64,000 bases of DNA from Nitrospiraceae bacterium. GTDB lineage: Bacteria; Nitrospirota; Thermodesulfovibrionia; UBA6902. The stretch's first letter is position 1; each line of letters starts with the position of its first letter. This document shows positions 9,204 to 37,204 of this stretch, in pieces. The stretch is from assembly GCA_003599505.1 (NCBI GenBank), contig QZKO01000028.1, positions 1 to 64,000 on the forward strand. The letters run 5' to 3'. The position numbers and the translations under genes were made by a program. The notes under the pieces are model-generated. The model saw nothing but the letters and a program-made list of their open reading frames with translations. It searched no databases and was not told where the DNA came from.

Positions 9204-9938
9204 ATGAAATTTCTCGCGCTTTTATCATCGATGCCGTTTGAGTCAGATCAGGTCCTTGACGCGCTCAGGAATGTCCGGGTCCTGAATATTGCCGGGAAAA
9301 CCGTTTACAGGGGCCGGCTTTCAGGTCATGATATCATATTGTTGAATACTGGTATCGGAAAAGTGAACGCGGCCCATTCCGCTACGTGTATTATTGAGTA
9401 TTTTCAGGTCAAACAGGTTGTCAATTTCGGGGTCGGGGGAGCTTATCCGCAGTCCGGACTTAAAATCGGAGATATCGCTGTTGCATCAAAGGAAATATAC
9501 GGCGATGAAGGAGTAATAACTTCAAAGGGATGGGATAGTTTAAGGAAGATAGGCATTCCCTTGTTGCAAGACGGCACAAAAAAATATTTTAATGAGTTTA
9601 CACTATCCCTTAACCGCCCTTTTGAAAAGGGGGGACGGGGGGATTTTCAAATTAAGCGCGGCAACTTCGTCACTGTCTCAGCAACGACAGGCGCTCAAAG
9701 AAGGGCGATTGAACTCGGAAAAAGGTTTAATGCAATTTGTGAAAACATGGAAGGCGCGGCGGTCGCCCATGTTTGTACAATATATAAAATTCCTTTCCTC
9801 GAGGTCAGAGGGATCAGCAACGTCACTGGCGTAAGGGACAAAAGAAAATGGGATTTGAAGCTTGCTTCCGGAAATTGTCAGAAGGCGGTTCTGGAATTCA
9901 TGACACGATACAAAAACGGTAACGGGAGGTTTAAATGA
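9204..9938 (+). CDS. mqnB: Futalosine hydrolase
   Basis: Releases hypoxanthine from futalosine in the alternative menaquinone pathway. The 244 residues show a purine nucleosidase fold: [34 protein letters not shown], and the nucleoside-binding [13 protein letters not shown] with the Met-Glu pair. The start at ATG 9204 is chosen because upstream codons in the same frame do not resemble the family and are antisense to the small RHH gene. About residues 137-149 ([11 protein letters not shown]) come from a repeat inserted in frame (9612-9646). The stop overlaps cysK's ATG. Other mqn genes are not in the window. Confidence 0.9.
9612..9646. repeat. Palindromic CCC-TTTTGAAAA-GGGG element inside mqnB
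   Basis: The element reads CGCCCTTTTGAAAAGGGG, then a G-rich tail GGGACGGGGGGATT. The same arrangement occurs reverse-complemented inside the GT39 gene (45406-45440). Both copies keep the host frame open and insert (R/L)-(E/K)-KGG-(R/Q)-G-(D/G)-F. Confidence 0.75.
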
Positions 9939-29610: not shown

Positions 29611-31587
29611 TCAATACCCCTCTACTTCCCATTGTTCATAAGTCCTTTCCGGCAGCTCCTGGATAAACGGAGAAGGCCTTTTTATGATGGAGCCGTCGCG
29701 CCATCTGTCGTCCATAACGGGATAACAGAGGTAAAGCTCGTCTTTTGCCCTTGTGACCGCGACGTAAAACACCCTCCTCTCCTCTTCCTCTCCCTCAAGG
29801 CTGCCCATTGACTTTGCCGAGGGGAAGTTGCCGTCGGTAAGTCCTATGATAAAGACCCTCGACCATTCCAGCCCCTTTGCCCTGTGGATGGTGGAGAGCA
29901 CGATTGATTCACTCTCCTCTCCCGGCTCTACCACATCCTCTGCCTGAACGTTAGTAAGGAGCGCGAGGTCGCTCAGGAAGTCCTTTGTTGATTTGAAATG
30001 TTCGGAGTAATTTGAGAGCTGCTCGATGTCCTCAAGCCTGTCTTCATAATTTTCGTAACTGCTTTGCAGATAGGCAATGTAGCCTCTTTCGAGTATTTCC
30101 CTGATGGCCTCCGGGGGCCGGCTTAAAACTGTTTCGTCTTTTAATGTTTCCATGCTGCTTCTGTACTTTTGCCAGTTGGCCTTCGCCCTCTTTGTAAGCA
30201 TCTTTGAAACTCCGTCGGATACCGCTGTCTCAAGCGGCGTTTCAGAAGCGCTTATATGTTCCCAGATTTTTTTCGCGGTTATATTGCCGATGCCCGGGAC
30301 CAGTTTCAGTATCCTCGTCCACGAAATCTCATCCATGGGGTTTAACGCGGCCCGCAGGTATGAGATGACATCTTTTATATGCGCCTGCTCAAAGAAACGC
30401 AGGCCGGAGCGGACTTCATAGGGTATCCTTCTCCTTGTTAATTCCATCTGCAGGTCCATAGACTGATAATGCGACCTGTAAAGGACCGCGATCTCTCTCA
30501 TCGGCATACCTTCATCAATAAGGTCGAGAACCCTCTGTGAAACGAATTCAGCCTCCCGGGACCGGTTTTCCAATGGAACAAGGGCGGGCCTGGCCCCTGC
30601 CCTCTGAACGGAATTGAGGACCTTCGGAAATTGCCTTTTATTGTTGGCAATGCTCTCATTCGCGAGAGAGAGGATTTCATCCGTACTCCTGTAGTTCGTT
30701 GTCAGTTTAAATACTTTCGCGCCGGGATATCTCTCCGGGAAGTTTATTATATTATCGAAGCACGCGCCCCTGAAAGAGTAGATAGACTGTGCGTCATCTC
30801 CCACCACCATCAGATTTTTATGCCTTGACGCCATGAGGTCCACGATCTCCGCCTGGATCCTGTTGGTGTCCTGATATTCGTCCACGAGGATGTGCAGAAA
30901 CCTTTCAGAGAGTTTCTCCCGGACCGCCGGGACGTCAGTGAGTATCTTTTTCCAGTAAAGGAGGAGGTCGTCAAAGTCCACAAGGTTCATGGTCCTCTTC
31001 TTTCTGACATACAACTGACCGACCTTTTCAATCTCTTCGGCAAACACAAGAAGGTATGAGAAATCTTTTTCTATTACGTCAATAACCGTCCTGTCGGCCC
31101 CGGTTGAGCGGCTGATAACCTCAAGGAGGACCTTCGCCTTCGGGAACATGCTGTGCGTCCTCAGGCTGAGCTCCGCTATGCATGAATCAACGAGGTCCTT
31201 AGTGTCTTCACTGTCAAGGATTGTGAAATTGGTATTGAGGTTGACTGTGTCTCCATATTGTCTCAGGATAATATTCCCTATGTGATGAAACGTGCCTCCC
31301 CACACCCTCCTTGATTCTCCTTTTATAAGAAGCTCGACCCTGTGGAGCATCTCCCGCGCGGCCCTGTTCGTAAAGGTCAGCAGCATTATCCTTGAGGGAT
31401 AAATACCGCTCTCCATTAGATAAGCTACCCTGTAGGTCACGACCCTTGTCTTTCCTGAGCCTGCGCCTGCAATGACGAGCGAAGGGCCTTCGCCGGATGT
31501 TACCGCCTCCATCTGCTCGGGATTGAGGTAGGATGCGTAATCAATAGAGGGTTTAAAGTGCGGCGATGATTTAAGGTGGTATTTCAT
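29611..31587 (-). CDS. uvrD: UvrD/PcrA-like superfamily I DNA helicase
   Basis: 658 residues. SF1A motifs in order: Q-motif LNPEQMEAV (about 22-30), Walker A GAGSGKTRV (about 41-49), LTFTNRAAREM, Walker B VDEYQDTNRIQ (about 240), DDAQSIYSFRGA, TTNYRS, 'EARFVS'-like motif, and STIHRAKGLEWSRVF followed by VAVTRAKDELYL. Unwinds DNA in repair. Slightly shorter than UvrD (about 720), lacking the C-terminal tail, and may be a Rep/PcrA-type paralogue. Confidence 0.93.
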   Translation of the reverse strand: MKYHLKSSPHFKPSIDYASYLNPEQMEAVTSGEGPSLVIAGAGSGKTRVVTYRVAYLMESGIYPSRIMLLTFTNRAAREMLHRVELLIKGESRRVWGGTFHHIGNIILRQYGDTVNLNTNFTILDSEDTKDLVDSCIAELSLRTHSMFPKAKVLLEVISRSTGADRTVIDVIEKDFSYLLVFAEEIEKVGQLYVRKKRTMNLVDFDDLLLYWKKILTDVPAVREKLSERFLHILVDEYQDTNRIQAEIVDLMASRHKNLMVVGDDAQSIYSFRGACFDNIINFPERYPGAKVFKLTTNYRSTDEILSLANESIANNKRQFPKVLNSVQRAGARPALVPLENRSREAEFVSQRVLDLIDEGMPMREIAVLYRSHYQSMDLQMELTRRRIPYEVRSGLRFFEQAHIKDVISYLRAALNPMDEISWTRILKLVPGIGNITAKKIWEHISASETPLETAVSDGVSKMLTKRAKANWQKYRSSMETLKDETVLSRPPEAIREILERGYIAYLQSSYENYEDRLEDIEQLSNYSEHFKSTKDFLSDLALLTNVQAEDVVEPGEESESIVLSTIHRAKGLEWSRVFIIGLTDGNFPSAKSMGSLEGEEEERRVFYVAVTRAKDELYLCYPVMDDRWRDGSIIKRPSPFIQELPERTYEQWEVEGY

Positions 31588-31659: not shown

Positions 31660-31687
31660 GTAGGGGCAATTCATGAATTGCCCCTAC
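31660..31687. repeat. 28-bp perfect palindrome overlapping a stop codon
   Basis: GTAGGGGCAATTCA followed by its exact reverse complement. The last bases supply the TAG stop of the ParB-like gene (31684-31686). Upstream 31621-31659 contains two ACCCGGTGTTGCC half copies. Confidence 0.9.
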
Positions 31688-32655
31688 AATTCATCCAGCA
31701 AATTCTCGAGGGCCTTCTTCATTTCAGGAGAGCTCACCTTATCCAGCAATCCGTCAAATTCCTTTATATCCTTCAGATGCACCGTAACATCAACATTCTT
31801 GTTCTCAAGCGTCCTGTCCCACTCCAGGGATATTTCACGCGGGAGATTCAGACCCTCAACCGTTTTATCCATCTTTACCTGCACCCCTGATAAAACCGGG
31901 AACCGCTTCCTGCGGATAAGCTCCCGCAGCCTCTCGGTTTTGTCTCTCGGACTTTGGGTCGACCCCATGATTTCCGCAACGCCCGGCTCACCCGGAAAGT
32001 CGGCAATGGTTTTATTCTGCGCCCGCAGATAATCCTTCAGGTTTGAAGCGATTTCATCCATAATGGAAGCGGTCAACTGGATGTCCGGCCTCCACGCCAT
32101 CAACTGCGAAAGTATTTCTTCCGGATAATGGGTCAGATTAAGTATCTGCTTCAGGGAAAACTTCTTTTCATGGCAGAACAATTTCAATTCATCGGGCAAG
32201 GCATTCACCCTCCTGCAATCCTTCAGAAAATCACTGTAAGGTCTGAACCCGAAAGCAGGACAGAGGAAGTTCAATATCCATGATTCCGGCGAGTCCCTGT
32301 CCATCGCAAAACAGATGAACCGGACTTTATTCATGATGCTCTGTTCAATACCGCTTCTCTTATTGCAGAGGATGAAGGTAAAGATATCCGTTACCGGAGT
32401 AGTATCCGGAAGTATTACAGCGCTGATTTCATTAAAGTGATTGCGAAGCGCAAACTGAATACGCTTCCTCCCGTCAATCAGATGAAGCTGTCCGCCTTTG
32501 TCACTTTGAATAATGACAGGGTGGATTATGCCCATATTGGCGAACGAATCTTCAAGGCCCGTCTTATCAAAATCCGGTTCATAAAGAACGCCGCCCGGCG
32601 AGAAACGGCTTTTCTCAACAAAGATATCGTTTATATTTACGTTCTGAACAGTCAT
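31684..32655 (-). CDS. ParB/Srx-fold nuclease-like protein
   Basis: 323 residues. Residues about 1-90 have the ParB-N pattern: VNINDIFV, LEDSFANMGIIHPVIIQSDK and HLIDGRKRIQFALRNH (about 57-72), the nucleotide-binding box of the ParB/sulfiredoxin fold. Residues 90-200 are helical, like the ParB HTH region, but no clear DNA-binding helix is recognised. There is no ParA next to it, so plasmid-type partition is unlikely. It sits 13 bp downstream of the nucleosidase-glycosyltransferase fusion on the same strand, suggesting a joint but unknown role. The last residues and stop come from a palindromic repeat. Confidence 0.75.
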   Translation of the reverse strand: MTVQNVNINDIFVEKSRFSPGGVLYEPDFDKTGLEDSFANMGIIHPVIIQSDKGGQLHLIDGRKRIQFALRNHFNEISAVILPDTTPVTDIFTFILCNKRSGIEQSIMNKVRFICFAMDRDSPESWILNFLCPAFGFRPYSDFLKDCRRVNALPDELKLFCHEKKFSLKQILNLTHYPEEILSQLMAWRPDIQLTASIMDEIASNLKDYLRAQNKTIADFPGEPGVAEIMGSTQSPRDKTERLRELIRRKRFPVLSGVQVKMDKTVEGLNLPREISLEWDRTLENKNVDVTVHLKDIKEFDGLLDKVSSPEMKKALENLLDEL

Positions 32656-32668
32656 GGAATTAGATATT

Positions 32669-34141
32669 TTACATCTTCCTCAATGATTCAAGCATCCCCC
32701 TGCACTCCTCTGCCTCATTCCTCTTCCCCCTCTTTTCATACCCGTTAATCAGGATGGTCAGCTTCTTTGCAAGTACCCTGATAATCTTCTCCCTGTAGTG
32801 TCCGTCAGGTTCCTGCTCCAGCAATCTCATCAGCGACCTCACCCTGAACCTGTCCATCGCAGGATATCTCCGCGACAACTGATCGCTATGCCCGCCGTAT
32901 TTGATAACGGAAAAAGACGGTTCAAGGCCCACCGGATGACGCCGGGATATTTTAAGCCACAGGTCGTAATCTTCGCAGACAGACAGGCCTTCATCGAATA
33001 AACCGTATTGCTCAAGCAGCGATTTCCTGACAAGTACTCCGGAAGGAGATACAAGACACCGCTCAAGCGACTTTTCCCATATCCAGCCTTCCGGCTTTTT
33101 ATGATGCCTGCAGGGATTGACCCTCGCCCCGTTCCGTATCCAGACTTCCTCCGACTGGAGTATCCGGTAGAAAGGATATTTCCCCAGGTATTCGACCTGG
33201 TCCTTCAGTTTGTCCTTTTCCCAGCAGTCATCGGAATCAAGAAAGGCGACCCACTCGGTTTTTGCGCGTTTAACGCCTTCATTCCTTGCCGGTGACGGGC
33301 CTGAATTACGCGACAGAAAAACAGGAGTGATTTTTTCGTAGTAGCTCCTCAGGACATCTTTTGTTTTATCGTCAGAGCAGTCATCGACAACGATAATCTC
33401 ATCCGGCCTGTGGGACTGGGACAATACGGAATCGATCGCGCGTCCGATGGTTTGCTGCCGGTTGTGTACAGGGATTACCGCGGTTATTCTTGAGGGGTTA
33501 TCTTCTGTGAAACTGAAAAGGCCTGTCAGTTTTCGCGCGAACAAAGCGAGATTGGCGTTAAAGTCCGAAAGCATATTCCCATCGGAAAAATCCGTGCTGA
33601 ATTTCAGACAATGGAAGCTGATGCCGCATTCGCTGAAAATTTTTGCCTGTGAGTAGCATTCCATATCAATAGCATCATGTCTTTTCCAGGCATCAGGGAA
33701 GGCGCCGTTACAGGTTTTTCCGACGCTGAGAAGGGAATGGACCTCAACCGCGTCTTCCTCAAACGGAAACGGGAGTCTCATGTCGAGTTTCAGCGTGTCA
33801 CCGCCTTCGTTCGCAGAGTAACGCGGTCTTATCCATCGGGCGACCGGATATTCCCGTTTCAAGAGACCGCATGTTCCGATGTTAACGACAAAAAGCGGGC
33901 CCACGTGGTCCCTTATCCAGCGCGCTGCATCTTCATTCGCATCGGGTCCCGGCCCGGTTATCACTATCAGAATGCCTGAAGAGAAACTTTGCTGTTTAAT
34001 GGCCCCGGACTTCAAGGCCTCGATAGTATGCACCGGTATTCCATGAGTTACAAACCAGTCCCCTGGAACTTCCTTTTTCAGGGCGGCTGTGACGACAAGC
34101 TTGATATCAGGGGATTTTTGTAATTTAATTTTCATGTACAA
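32669..34141 (-). CDS. Nucleoside phosphorylase-like domain fused to family 2 glycosyltransferase
   Basis: 490 residues with two domains. Residues 12-210 resemble purine nucleoside phosphorylase/MTA-SAH nucleosidase: VVTAALKKEVPGDWF, GPGPDANEDAARWI, VVNIGTCGLL (85-94), DAIDMECYSQAKIF (157-169, the Met-Glu ribose contact) and STDFSDGN. Residues 217-440 are a GT-A glycosyltransferase: AVIPVHNRQQTIGRAIDSVL, VVDDCSDDKT, FLDSDDCWEKDKL (DxD region 302-304) and SVCEDYDLWLKISR. A helical tail follows. The combination is unusual; the first domain might handle a nucleotide by-product or a nucleoside signal. No signal peptide, so it is cytoplasmic. Confidence 0.82.
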   Translation of the reverse strand: MYMKIKLQKSPDIKLVVTAALKKEVPGDWFVTHGIPVHTIEALKSGAIKQQSFSSGILIVITGPGPDANEDAARWIRDHVGPLFVVNIGTCGLLKREYPVARWIRPRYSANEGGDTLKLDMRLPFPFEEDAVEVHSLLSVGKTCNGAFPDAWKRHDAIDMECYSQAKIFSECGISFHCLKFSTDFSDGNMLSDFNANLALFARKLTGLFSFTEDNPSRITAVIPVHNRQQTIGRAIDSVLSQSHRPDEIIVVDDCSDDKTKDVLRSYYEKITPVFLSRNSGPSPARNEGVKRAKTEWVAFLDSDDCWEKDKLKDQVEYLGKYPFYRILQSEEVWIRNGARVNPCRHHKKPEGWIWEKSLERCLVSPSGVLVRKSLLEQYGLFDEGLSVCEDYDLWLKISRRHPVGLEPSFSVIKYGGHSDQLSRRYPAMDRFRVRSLMRLLEQEPDGHYREKIIRVLAKKLTILINGYEKRGKRNEAEECRGMLESLRKM

Positions 34142-34918: not shown

Positions 34919-37204
34919 ATGTTCAAAATCTTGCATAAACAGTCGCTTGCCCCACTGGTTGATGAAATGGTCATAGACGCTCCGCATATCGCGCGTCACG
35001 CCAGGGCCGGCAACTTTGTCGTGCTGAGGATCGATGAAAAGGGAGAAAGAATCCCCCTGACCATTGCTGATTCAGACAGCGCAAACGGTACGGTAACATT
35101 ACTTTTCCAGAAGGTCGGAAAGACGACGGAAAAGCTCGGCTCCCTGGGTCCCGGGGGATACATAAGGGACGTGACGGGCCCGCTCGGTCATCCTACACCG
35201 GTAAAGGAATACGGACACTGCGTGCTGGTAGGCGGCGGCATAGGGACTGCTACGCTGTACCCTATCCTGAAGGCTTTAAAAGATACAAACAATATGGTGA
35301 CGGTAATTCTCGGGGCCCGGACAGAAGGGCTTCTGGTATGGGCGGACAAATTCATGGAGCTTGCCGACGAAACAGTGATAACAACAGATGATGGAAGCTC
35401 AGGCAGAAAAGGTCTTGTCACTGAAGCCCTGAAAGAAATAATCGATGCCGAATCTGTCGCAGTGGTCATTGCTGTCGGTCCCATAAGGATGATGAAGGCG
35501 GTTTCAGACCTTACGAGGCCGTACGGCATTAAGACCATAGTCAGCCTCAATCCCGTTATGGTTGAAGGCACGGGCATGTGCGGGGCCTGCAGGGTAACCA
35601 TAGGGGAGAAAACAAGGTTTGCGTGTGTTGACGGGCCTGAATTCGACGGGCATGAGGTGGATTTCCGGGAATTGGAGAACAGACTGGGATTTTATAAGAA
35701 AGAAGAAGAACAGGCGTACCATTTGTTTTTAAGAAAGACGAAGACAGGGTTCAAGGGTTCAAGGGTTCAAGGGTTCAAGGGGTCAAGGGGTCAAGTAATG
35801 CGATTCAGAAATCCTGAAAAAAGAAAAACCGATTTCAAGGAGGTTTCACTCGGCCTGACGGAAAGACAGGCGGTGAAGGAAGCGGACCGCTGCCTTCAGT
35901 GCAAAAAACCTCACTGCATTGCAGGCTGTCCTGTTGAGATCGACATACCGAAATTCATCTCATTTGTCAAAGAGAAAGATTATCTCGGCGGGCTGAAAAA
36001 AATAAGGGAATTCAACATGCTCCCCGCGATATGCGGAAGGGTCTGCCCGCAGGAGCACCAGTGCCAGGGCAACTGCGTGCTCGGCAAAAAGAAACATCCT
36101 GTCTCCATAGGCGCGCTTGAGCGGTTTGTCGCTGATTATGAGGCGACTTTGGGACAGCCGGAGCTCCCTGAAACAACTCCGCCTAACGGATATAAAGTTG
36201 CGGTTGTAGGTTCAGGCCCCGCGGGATTGACAGTTGCAGCCGACCTTGCGAAGATTGGGTACGGCGTCACGGTCTTTGAAGCCCTTCACGAGCCCGGAGG
36301 GGTGCTTACCTATGGTATTCCTGAATTCCGGCTGCCGAAGAAAATTATCAACAGAGAAATTGATTTTGTAAAAAGCCTCGGCGTGGAAATTATACTCAAC
36401 TGTGTTGTCGGAAGAACACGCACCATCGATGAACTGTTTGAAGACGGGTTCAAGGCAATTTTTATCGGCGTGGGCGCCGGTTCGCCGAAATATCTTGGAA
36501 TTCCGGGAGAAAACCTGAATAATGTATATTTTGCGTCGGAGTTCCTTACAAGGGTCAATCTCATGAAGGCTCATAAATTCCCTGTATACGACACGCCCGT
36601 GAAAAAAGCCAGGCAGGTAGCCGTCATCGGCGGGGGCAACGTTGCCATGGATTCAGCGAGGACGGCCCTGCGGCTCGGAGCTGAAAAAGTTTATATCGTT
36701 TACCGCAGGACAGAGCATGAAATGCCTTCAAGGCATGAGGAAGTTGAAAACGCTCAGGAAGAAGGGGTGGAGTTCCTCTTCCTTTCAAACCCGAAAGAGG
36801 TTATCGGTGATGAAAAAGGATATGTAACAGCGCTCAGGTGCGACAAGATGGTGCTGTGCGAGCCCGACGCATCAGGAAGGAGAAAACCTGAATGCTCTGG
36901 TGAAGAATTTACCCTTGATGTTGATCAGGTAATAATGGCAATCGGACAGACATCAAATCCCATCCTCGTCCGTTCCGTAACAGGTTTAACCCTCTGGGGT
37001 GAAGGCTATATCAAGATCGATCACGATGGAAGGACAAATTTACCGGGGATCTTTGCCGGGGGCGATATTACAACAGGCGCGGCAACGGTCATCAGCGCCA
37101 TGGGAGCGGGGAAACGCGCGGCGCGCTCAATCGATGATTACATCATGGGCAGAAAAGAAGAGCGGCAAACTGCCGGCAATCACACCCCTCAGGAGCCGTT
37201 ATAA
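34919..37204 (+). CDS. nfnAB: NfnA-NfnB fusion: NADH-dependent ferredoxin:NADP+ oxidoreductase
   Basis: 761 residues. Residues 1-276 are the NfnA/SudB-type subunit: FAD/NAD(H) ferredoxin-reductase fold and a [2Fe-2S] site (GTGMCGACRVT, FACVDGPEFDG). Residues 294-755 are the NfnB/SudA/GltD-type subunit: [4Fe-4S] motifs CLQCKKPHCIAGCP and CGRVCPQEHQCQGNC, FAD loop VAVVGSGPAGL and NADPH loop VAVIGGGNVAMDSARTALRL. Together they bifurcate electrons between NADPH, NAD+ and ferredoxin. These are normally two genes. The junction (277-293) is coded by a TTCAAGG heptamer array, and ATG 35798 is where a separate nfnB would begin. Confidence 0.92.
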   Translation: MFKILHKQSLAPLVDEMVIDAPHIARHARAGNFVVLRIDEKGERIPLTIADSDSANGTVTLLFQKVGKTTEKLGSLGPGGYIRDVTGPLGHPTPVKEYGHCVLVGGGIGTATLYPILKALKDTNNMVTVILGARTEGLLVWADKFMELADETVITTDDGSSGRKGLVTEALKEIIDAESVAVVIAVGPIRMMKAVSDLTRPYGIKTIVSLNPVMVEGTGMCGACRVTIGEKTRFACVDGPEFDGHEVDFRELENRLGFYKKEEEQAYHLFLRKTKTGFKGSRVQGFKGSRGQVMRFRNPEKRKTDFKEVSLGLTERQAVKEADRCLQCKKPHCIAGCPVEIDIPKFISFVKEKDYLGGLKKIREFNMLPAICGRVCPQEHQCQGNCVLGKKKHPVSIGALERFVADYEATLGQPELPETTPPNGYKVAVVGSGPAGLTVAADLAKIGYGVTVFEALHEPGGVLTYGIPEFRLPKKIINREIDFVKSLGVEIILNCVVGRTRTIDELFEDGFKAIFIGVGAGSPKYLGIPGENLNNVYFASEFLTRVNLMKAHKFPVYDTPVKKARQVAVIGGGNVAMDSARTALRLGAEKVYIVYRRTEHEMPSRHEEVENAQEEGVEFLFLSNPKEVIGDEKGYVTALRCDKMVLCEPDASGRRKPECSGEEFTLDVDQVIMAIGQTSNPILVRSVTGLTLWGEGYIKIDHDGRTNLPGIFAGGDITTGAATVISAMGAGKRAARSIDDYIMGRKEERQTAGNHTPQEPL
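35746..35797. repeat. GGTTCAA/GGGTCAA heptamer array at the nfnA-nfnB junction
   Basis: Units GGGTTCA then AGGGGTC in 7-bp phase, reading [17 protein letters not shown] in the fused frame. The array ends one base before an ATG that matches the NfnB N-terminus. Confidence 0.85.

Follow-up and report, generated by a model that had tools for sequence, protein, structure and literature searches.

A nucleosidase–glycosyltransferase fusion and an orphan ParB-like protein of Nitrospirota share their distribution with a radical-SAM enzyme of the spore photoproduct lyase family

The window analysed here, a stretch of 64,000 nucleotides from a Nitrospiraceae bacterium (contig QZKO01000028.1, assembly GCA_003599505.1), contains two adjacent genes that encode a fusion of a nucleosidase domain with a family 2 glycosyltransferase (GT2) and an orphan ParB-like protein. 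Our survey revealed a third partner, a radical S-adenosylmethionine (SAM) enzyme of the spore photoproduct lyase (SPL) family, which in the window's genome is located on another contig. The evidence that the three genes form one functional unit is strong. More tentatively, the two window genes can be placed in a three-component radical-SAM pathway whose chemistry we infer. An earlier note, made from the letters of the window, had suggested that the neighbouring parts act as one nucleotide-handling unit, an idea upheld by the co-occurrence described below; the radical-SAM partner was missed at that stage because its gene has moved to another contig in this genome.

Among 246 Nitrospirota genomes, the ParB-like protein was found in nine. 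The identical nine encode a close SPL-like enzyme (E<1e-100, with the next best match in the survey at 1.6e-47) and the nucleosidase domain (E<1e-40). Five further named genomes, retrieved from another collection through the ParB-like protein, all carry the SPL-like enzyme (E<1e-180) and the nucleosidase (5/5), and thus every genome found with one of the three genes carries the other two (14/14). The chance of obtaining an identical set of nine is 1e-16 when calculated naively and 4e-10 for six of 115 genera, both values being inflated by relatedness; a fair count of independent lineages with the trio is four to five. In the family to which the window belongs, the three genes are kept or lost together in nine genomes, five with and four without them. 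The phylum survey is a sample, and absence beyond the listed genomes is not proven for every species.

The three genes are also frequently neighbours (G and L numbers are our labels for genomes and loci). The SPL-type gene directly follows the ParB-like gene in 8 of the 14 genomes (L005, L006, L008, G158, G176, G140, G209 and G152), and the nucleosidase gene adjoins the ParB-like gene in six (the window, G158, G209, G152, L007 and L008), showing that the pairing is not unique to this contig. In G152, the genes for the nucleosidase-GT2, the ParB-like protein, the SPL-type enzyme and an aldo-keto reductase (AKR) overlap head to tail. The ParB-like and SPL genes of G249 each lie at a contig end and may be adjacent too. 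Three genomes (G107, G154 and G156) have the three genes on different contigs, yet all are present; physical linkage therefore cannot explain the co-occurrence.

The fusion gene was listed as an open reading frame (ORF) at 32669-34141 on the minus strand, with 490 amino acids and a TTG start at 34141. Comparison with homologues suggests that the ATG at 34135, two codons inside, is the better start. The features of this gene are as follows, where MTAN denotes the methylthioadenosine/S-adenosylhomocysteine (MTA/SAH) nucleosidase and PNP the purine nucleoside phosphorylase:
32669..34135, minus strand: nucleosidase-GT2 fusion gene, 488 amino acids, with the probable ATG start at 34135
33527..34108, minus strand: predicted nucleosidase domain, residues 12-205, PNP/MTAN superfamily, nearest curated model HpnG
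34070..34072, minus strand: putative catalytic Glu, E24 (MTAN Glu12), placed by motif, outside the printed profile alignment
33659..33661, minus strand: putative catalytic Glu, E161 in DME (MTAN Glu174), aligned to the MTAN ME motif
33590..33592, minus strand: putative catalytic Asp, D184 (MTAN Asp197), aligned to the MTAN SD motif
32822..33493, minus strand: GT2 glycosyltransferase domain, residues 217-440 (PF00535, 4.7e-34; Foldseek match to 6p61, 9e-13)
33227..33238, minus strand: GT2 metal/sugar-nucleotide motif DSDD (302-305), with the CEDYDLW acceptor-base region downstream

The nucleosidase domain was matched by PF01048, at E=1.6e-5 with the whole fusion protein (24.9 bits, just below the 25.1 cut-off) and at E=1.2e-6 with the isolated domain (28.6 bits, above it). 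The same Pfam model (best 5.4e-10) and the HpnG/nucleosidase NCBIfam models match 10 of 11 homologues, and the family profile retrieves solved MTA/SAH nucleosidase structures at 2.9e-5. The two domain calls of the earlier note are confirmed by these matches, and the possibility that the N-terminal domain is unrelated to nucleosidases did not hold. Like MTAN (Pfs), which its profile matches at 3e-5, the domain possesses a Glu-Glu-Asp triad; the E. coli triad of Glu12, Glu174 and Asp197 corresponds to E24, E161 and D184, invariant in 14/14 genomes. It differs in its fusion to GT2 in 11/14 genomes and in scoring under all MTAN curated cut-offs, with the equivalog models TIGR01704 (best 0.00056) and PRK05584 (best 1.5e-6) far from being reached. 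As judged from sequence, the domain appears to be a relative of MTAN in fold and mechanism and not an MTAN equivalog.

The GT2 domain resembles that of polysaccharide glycosyltransferases such as TuaG, and its DSDD motif and CEDYDLW region are invariant in all nine fusions aligned. Overall, 12/14 genomes have it, 11 as a fusion and G209 as a separate frame; in G176 and G248 the gene lacks it. Three genomes of another family (f33), whose SPL is more distant, likewise encode a GT2 from this clade (43-46% identical). For the fusion, the structure model was mediocre (pLDDT 76) and was kept out of active-site claims; the matches listed by its fold search were all to GT2.

The ParB-like gene is located downstream of the fusion gene, separated from it by 13 bp:
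31684..32655, minus strand: orphan ParB/Noc-like protein, 323 amino acids, from family profile, structure model and Foldseek
32461..32472, minus strand: Box II/P-motif GxxR (G62-R65), after the invariant D61, from the family alignment
32131..32337, minus strand: predicted helix-turn-helix (HTH) region, matching the ParB/Noc HTH by profile alignment (Noc 7ol9, residues 17-174; ParB 7bnk, 27-170) and by Foldseek

Alone, this protein matches PF02195 below threshold (E=0.0015). Its family profile matches ParB/Noc structures at 1e-6 to 1e-4, and its AlphaFold model (pLDDT 87) matches ParB/Noc over ~210 columns at E ~1e-6 in Foldseek. Profile and model together indicate that it is a divergent ParB with an N-domain and an HTH region, in agreement with the ParB fold first suggested for this neighbour. 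No ParA is encoded beside the gene, again as previously noted, and a canonical ParB (E 4.7e-57) is encoded elsewhere in the same genome. A kinase of the SbnI/SerK type, suggested by an Asp-Gly motif, was considered and rejected, since the fold search gave 1e-6 for ParB/Noc versus 0.02 for SbnI.

The N-domain with its GxxR P-motif, followed by the HTH region, is shared with the ParB/Noc/KorB CTP clamps and with orphan ParB-fold proteins. The present protein differs by the lack of a ParA neighbour, by an invariant Asp before the P-motif and by the loss of the ENxQR box (Box III, Mg/phosphate), in whose place the alignments show variable LCxKR-like residues. Box II, defined as in PMC12704722, is conserved in 13/14 genomes. 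A 2025 survey reported that the ENxQR box is often lost in orphan ParB proteins and that the nucleoside triphosphate (NTP) bound may be CTP, ATP or GTP (PMC12704722). The statement that ParB folds bind CTP, made earlier for this protein, is unsupported here: Box II is kept, but the ENxQR box is lost, and orphan folds may bind ATP or GTP in its stead.

In the window's genome, the SPL-like gene lies at ~38775-39788 of contig G000:C19 (L064:9776-10789), next to a gene from the SprT-like family that also occurs in L008. The enzyme matches PF20903 above cut-off, its profile matches 4k9r/4fhc over ~205 residues (E 1e-25), and the radical-SAM motif CX3CX2C, shared with SplB, is intact in 14/14 genomes. 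Its score against TIGR04070 is far under the cut-off (113-127 versus 400 bits). It further differs from SplB in having its own invariant cysteines (C28, C37, C38 and C291), a longer C-terminus and no Bacillus-type hydrogen-donor Cys140/141, the donor loop reading GTWxLGDS in 14/14 genomes. The role of Cys141 in SP lyase has been described (PMC3742179, PMC5368176), and in the Clostridium acetobutylicum enzyme the hydrogen donor is Cys74 (PMC5368176). By analogy with the latter, the upstream invariant Cys28 could serve as a replacement donor; its VCATF context resembles VCESF of a Fusobacterium protein described below, with a spacing that differs by 4 residues. Because the donor-loop Cys is absent in 14/14 genomes, the SPL-like enzyme is probably not an ordinary SP lyase, and ordinary spore-photoproduct reversal with SAM regeneration is, from the residues present, unlikely.

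Carbonyl reductases are recurrent, though not universal, companions of SPL genes, since a short-chain dehydrogenase/reductase (SDR) or an AKR stands beside them in Fusobacterium, gut contigs and Nitrospirota. A close AKR was found in 4/9 genomes with the gene set versus 0/20 without it, and an AKR lies beside the SPL gene also in L008 and G249, bringing the count to at least 6/14 Nitrospirota genomes. On a human-gut contig, an SPL ORF is overlapped on one side by a nucleosidase ORF (PF01048, 5.9e-5) and on the other by an SDR; on another gut contig, the SDR and the SPL flank a shortened ORF that contains no nucleosidase catalytic motifs. Fusobacterium vincentii (NZ_CP084075.1) encodes a protein of 623 amino acids that is nucleosidase-like at its N-terminus (TALYxEAK, YIDMEAY, IVSDI) and of the SPL type at its C-terminus, and the next gene after this fusion also encodes an SDR from the same subfamily. 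In G139 (f33), the SPL gene overlaps an SDR. As SDRs occur in all 22 genomes tested, their presence is not diagnostic and only adjacency counts, and the Fusobacterium and gut-contig cases are side matches, not a survey of other phyla. In two genomes (L148:8215-10542 and L149:8443-10771), the AKR is coupled to a TRZ/ATZ-family hydrolase (5'-deoxyadenosine/MTA/SAH deaminase-like), and the pair is followed by an aldehyde:ferredoxin oxidoreductase-like gene. Some database labels look wrong: NZ_CP084075.1 is labelled 'plasmid' but, at 2.1 Mb, looks like the Fusobacterium chromosome, and MT835514.1 and MT835770.1, labelled 'Bacteriophage sp.', are gut scaffolds with bacterial-type gene content.

In the pathway that we tentatively propose, the SPL-like enzyme would generate a 5'-deoxyadenosyl radical and give rise to an adenine nucleoside product, either a substrate-adenosyl compound or free 5'-deoxyadenosine, from which the nucleosidase would hydrolyse the adenine. 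A carbonyl reductase (the AKR here, the SDR in Fusobacteria and the gut contigs) would then reduce the exposed sugar aldehyde, and the GT2, where present, would add a sugar cap. The ParB-like protein might act as an adaptor or regulator that depends on nucleotides or binds DNA and that belongs to the Nitrospirota version alone.

Two known pairs provide the model for this proposal. In menaquinone biosynthesis, the radical-SAM enzyme MqnE, which adenosylates its substrate, is paired with a dedicated PNP-family nucleosidase, MqnB. Hopanoid biosynthesis has the pair HpnH/HpnG (PMC12583986). In both cases the substrate first receives a 5'-deoxyadenosyl radical and then loses the adenine, which leaves a ribosyl group; with hopanoids, reduction and glycosylation can follow. 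By analogy, we infer that the present set would likewise adenosylate and then remove adenine, while being identical to neither pair. The futalosine hydrolase model matches the window-type domain in only 1/11 members (0.0023), and the fusion is not a menaquinone enzyme, because the genome has a separate, genuine futalosine hydrolase within the window itself (9216-9899, plus strand; TIGR03664, 199.6 bits, above cut-off). That gene suggests a futalosine route to menaquinone; two MTAPs are encoded elsewhere in the genome. The likeness to HpnH/HpnG/HpnI extends to the combination of a radical-SAM enzyme, a PNP-family nucleosidase, later reduction and a glycosyltransferase, and in most homologues the curated model that fits the nucleosidase domain best is HpnG, although its cut-off is not reached (best E 5.3e-10; the window's domain scores 15.9 versus 187.1 bits). 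The present set differs in its SPL-type radical-SAM enzyme, its fused nucleosidase-GT2 and its ParB-fold partner. A hopanoid pathway of the HpnH/HpnG/HpnI kind was rejected, as squalene-hopene cyclase was found above cut-off in 0/9 of the genomes with the set versus 112/246 in the phylum.

Several observations weigh against the proposed pathway. It has no named substrate, it offers no explanation for the need of a ParB fold, and it makes no use of the fact that SPL relatives act on DNA. The nucleosidase could also merely clear 5'-deoxyadenosine. G176 and G248 are without the GT2, and 5/9 genomes with the set, that of the window included, gave no close AKR; the glycosylation and reduction steps would for these reasons be optional or replaced. 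The nucleosidase part of the Fusobacterium fusion rests on motif and position, with a Pfam score of 9.9 bits and no significant hhalign match. In the open-access literature, we found no report joining SPL with ParB in a relevant manner, SPL with a nucleosidase and an SDR, or a nucleosidase and GT2 with a radical-SAM enzyme. A bolder version of the proposal, which we regard as rather doubtful, is that of a new and widespread pathway in which an SPL-type enzyme adenosylates a substrate. This would be a third case of MqnE/HpnH chemistry from an unrelated radical-SAM family. It would have its own nucleosidase, reductase and glycosyltransferase, and in Nitrospirota an NTP switch with a ParB fold would control or deliver it, possibly to DNA.

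The main rival, unlikely but to be taken seriously, is a unit for the repair or modification of nucleic acids, in which the ParB-like protein, by binding DNA, would bring the SPL-type enzyme to it, the nucleosidase would remove the inhibitory co-product 5'-deoxyadenosine, and the GT2 and reductase would play accessory parts. DNA repair is the function of characterised SPLs, the ParB NTPase and HTH regions are kept in the ParB-like protein, and the invariant Cys28 may take the place of Cys74 of the C. acetobutylicum SPL (PMC5368176). The neighbours vary among repair genes, including UvrD/PcrA (the window and L004), PolX (G176), the EndoQ-like TIGR00375 (G249), a RecB-like helicase (G107 and G156) and an SprT-like gene near the SPL gene in five related genomes (Pfam match in L008). 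However, these neighbours differ between genomes and could be due to chance, the Bacillus-type donor Cys is absent, and lesion reversal offers no evident use for a fused glycosyltransferase or for linked aldehyde reductases. Decidedly less probable is that the nucleosidase serves general SAM recycling only, by clearing 5'-deoxyadenosine, MTA or SAH, its link to the SPL-like enzyme being housekeeping. MTANs are known to hydrolyse 5'-deoxyadenosine and thereby relieve the product inhibition of radical-SAM enzymes, and the triad is intact here; but two MTAPs and a futalosine hydrolase are already encoded in this genome, and a dedicated step is suggested by the finding that the nucleosidase is strictly confined to genomes that have this one SPL-like enzyme and this ParB-like protein.

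Both functions envisaged by the earlier note fared poorly. A surface-glycan enzyme with nucleotide sensing would agree with the TuaG-like GT2 and with a flippase-like gene that follows the SPL gene in G154, but is very unlikely, given that no glycan or polysaccharide cluster surrounds the nucleosidase-GT2 or ParB-like genes in the genomes read and that the GT2 is dispensable in 2/14. An anti-phage defence system is more improbable still. The distribution is patchy and ParB-fold proteins occur in mobile elements (PMC12704722), but five proteins searched match no PADLOC family at E<=0.01, close relatives are lacking in plasmid and viral collections, and the genes are conserved, often dispersed and ordinarily chromosomal, with loss of the GT2 or reductase being tolerated. 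A mobile or viral origin was likewise discarded: the ParB-like protein has no close relative in plasmids or viral contigs, and viral matches to the fusion are single-domain, weak GT2 or PNP hits. That the genes are chance neighbours without common function is scarcely credible; it would suit a view of this single genome, where the SPL gene is unlinked, but is already contradicted by the same nine of 246 genomes, the five of five further genomes and the Fusobacterium fusion.

The next gene downstream is regarded as context and not counted as a member of the set:
29611..31587, minus strand: UvrD/PcrA-type helicase (PF00580, 1.6e-75)

Such a helicase is found beside the ParB-like gene also in L004, and not in more distant genomes. 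An SprT-like gene is convergent to the SPL-like gene at L064:10793-11467, L008:9070-9738, L056:4278-4988, L057:8988-9662 and L059:11393-12064, at a distance of one or more genes in L008 and L059; this may represent synteny or a further partner. In G158, a PIN-domain/AbrB-like pair resembling a toxin-antitoxin system is located between the nucleosidase-GT2 and ParB-like genes (L056:7159-7808). A TIGR00375 (EndoQ-like PHP) gene overlaps the start of the nucleosidase-GT2 gene by 4 bp in G249 (L154:6571-9323), and PolX follows the lone nucleosidase in G176. In two genomes, DUF1848 genes were observed within a few kb of the nucleosidase-GT2 gene, at L155:2535-3467 and L070:15198-16094, the latter identified by sequence similarity only. 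On the plus strand of the window, a 761-amino-acid ORF (34919-37204) appears to fuse ferredoxin-NADP reductase-like and GltD-like parts that are encoded by separate neighbouring genes in L005 and L152; in both of these, the same ComF-GltD locus adjoins the gene set.

To our knowledge, SPL family members outside spore formers have no established function. The pairing of a radical-SAM enzyme with a nucleosidase is a theme already known, while the ParB-fold partner is unexpected and the proposed three-gene pathway is uncharacterised. The function of one SPL clade becomes testable through its tight link to a nucleosidase, to carbonyl reductases, to a GT2 and to an orphan ParB-fold protein. Orphan ParBs have lately been found to differ in the NTP that they bind (PMC12704722), and this one gains defined enzymes as partners in place of a role in partition.

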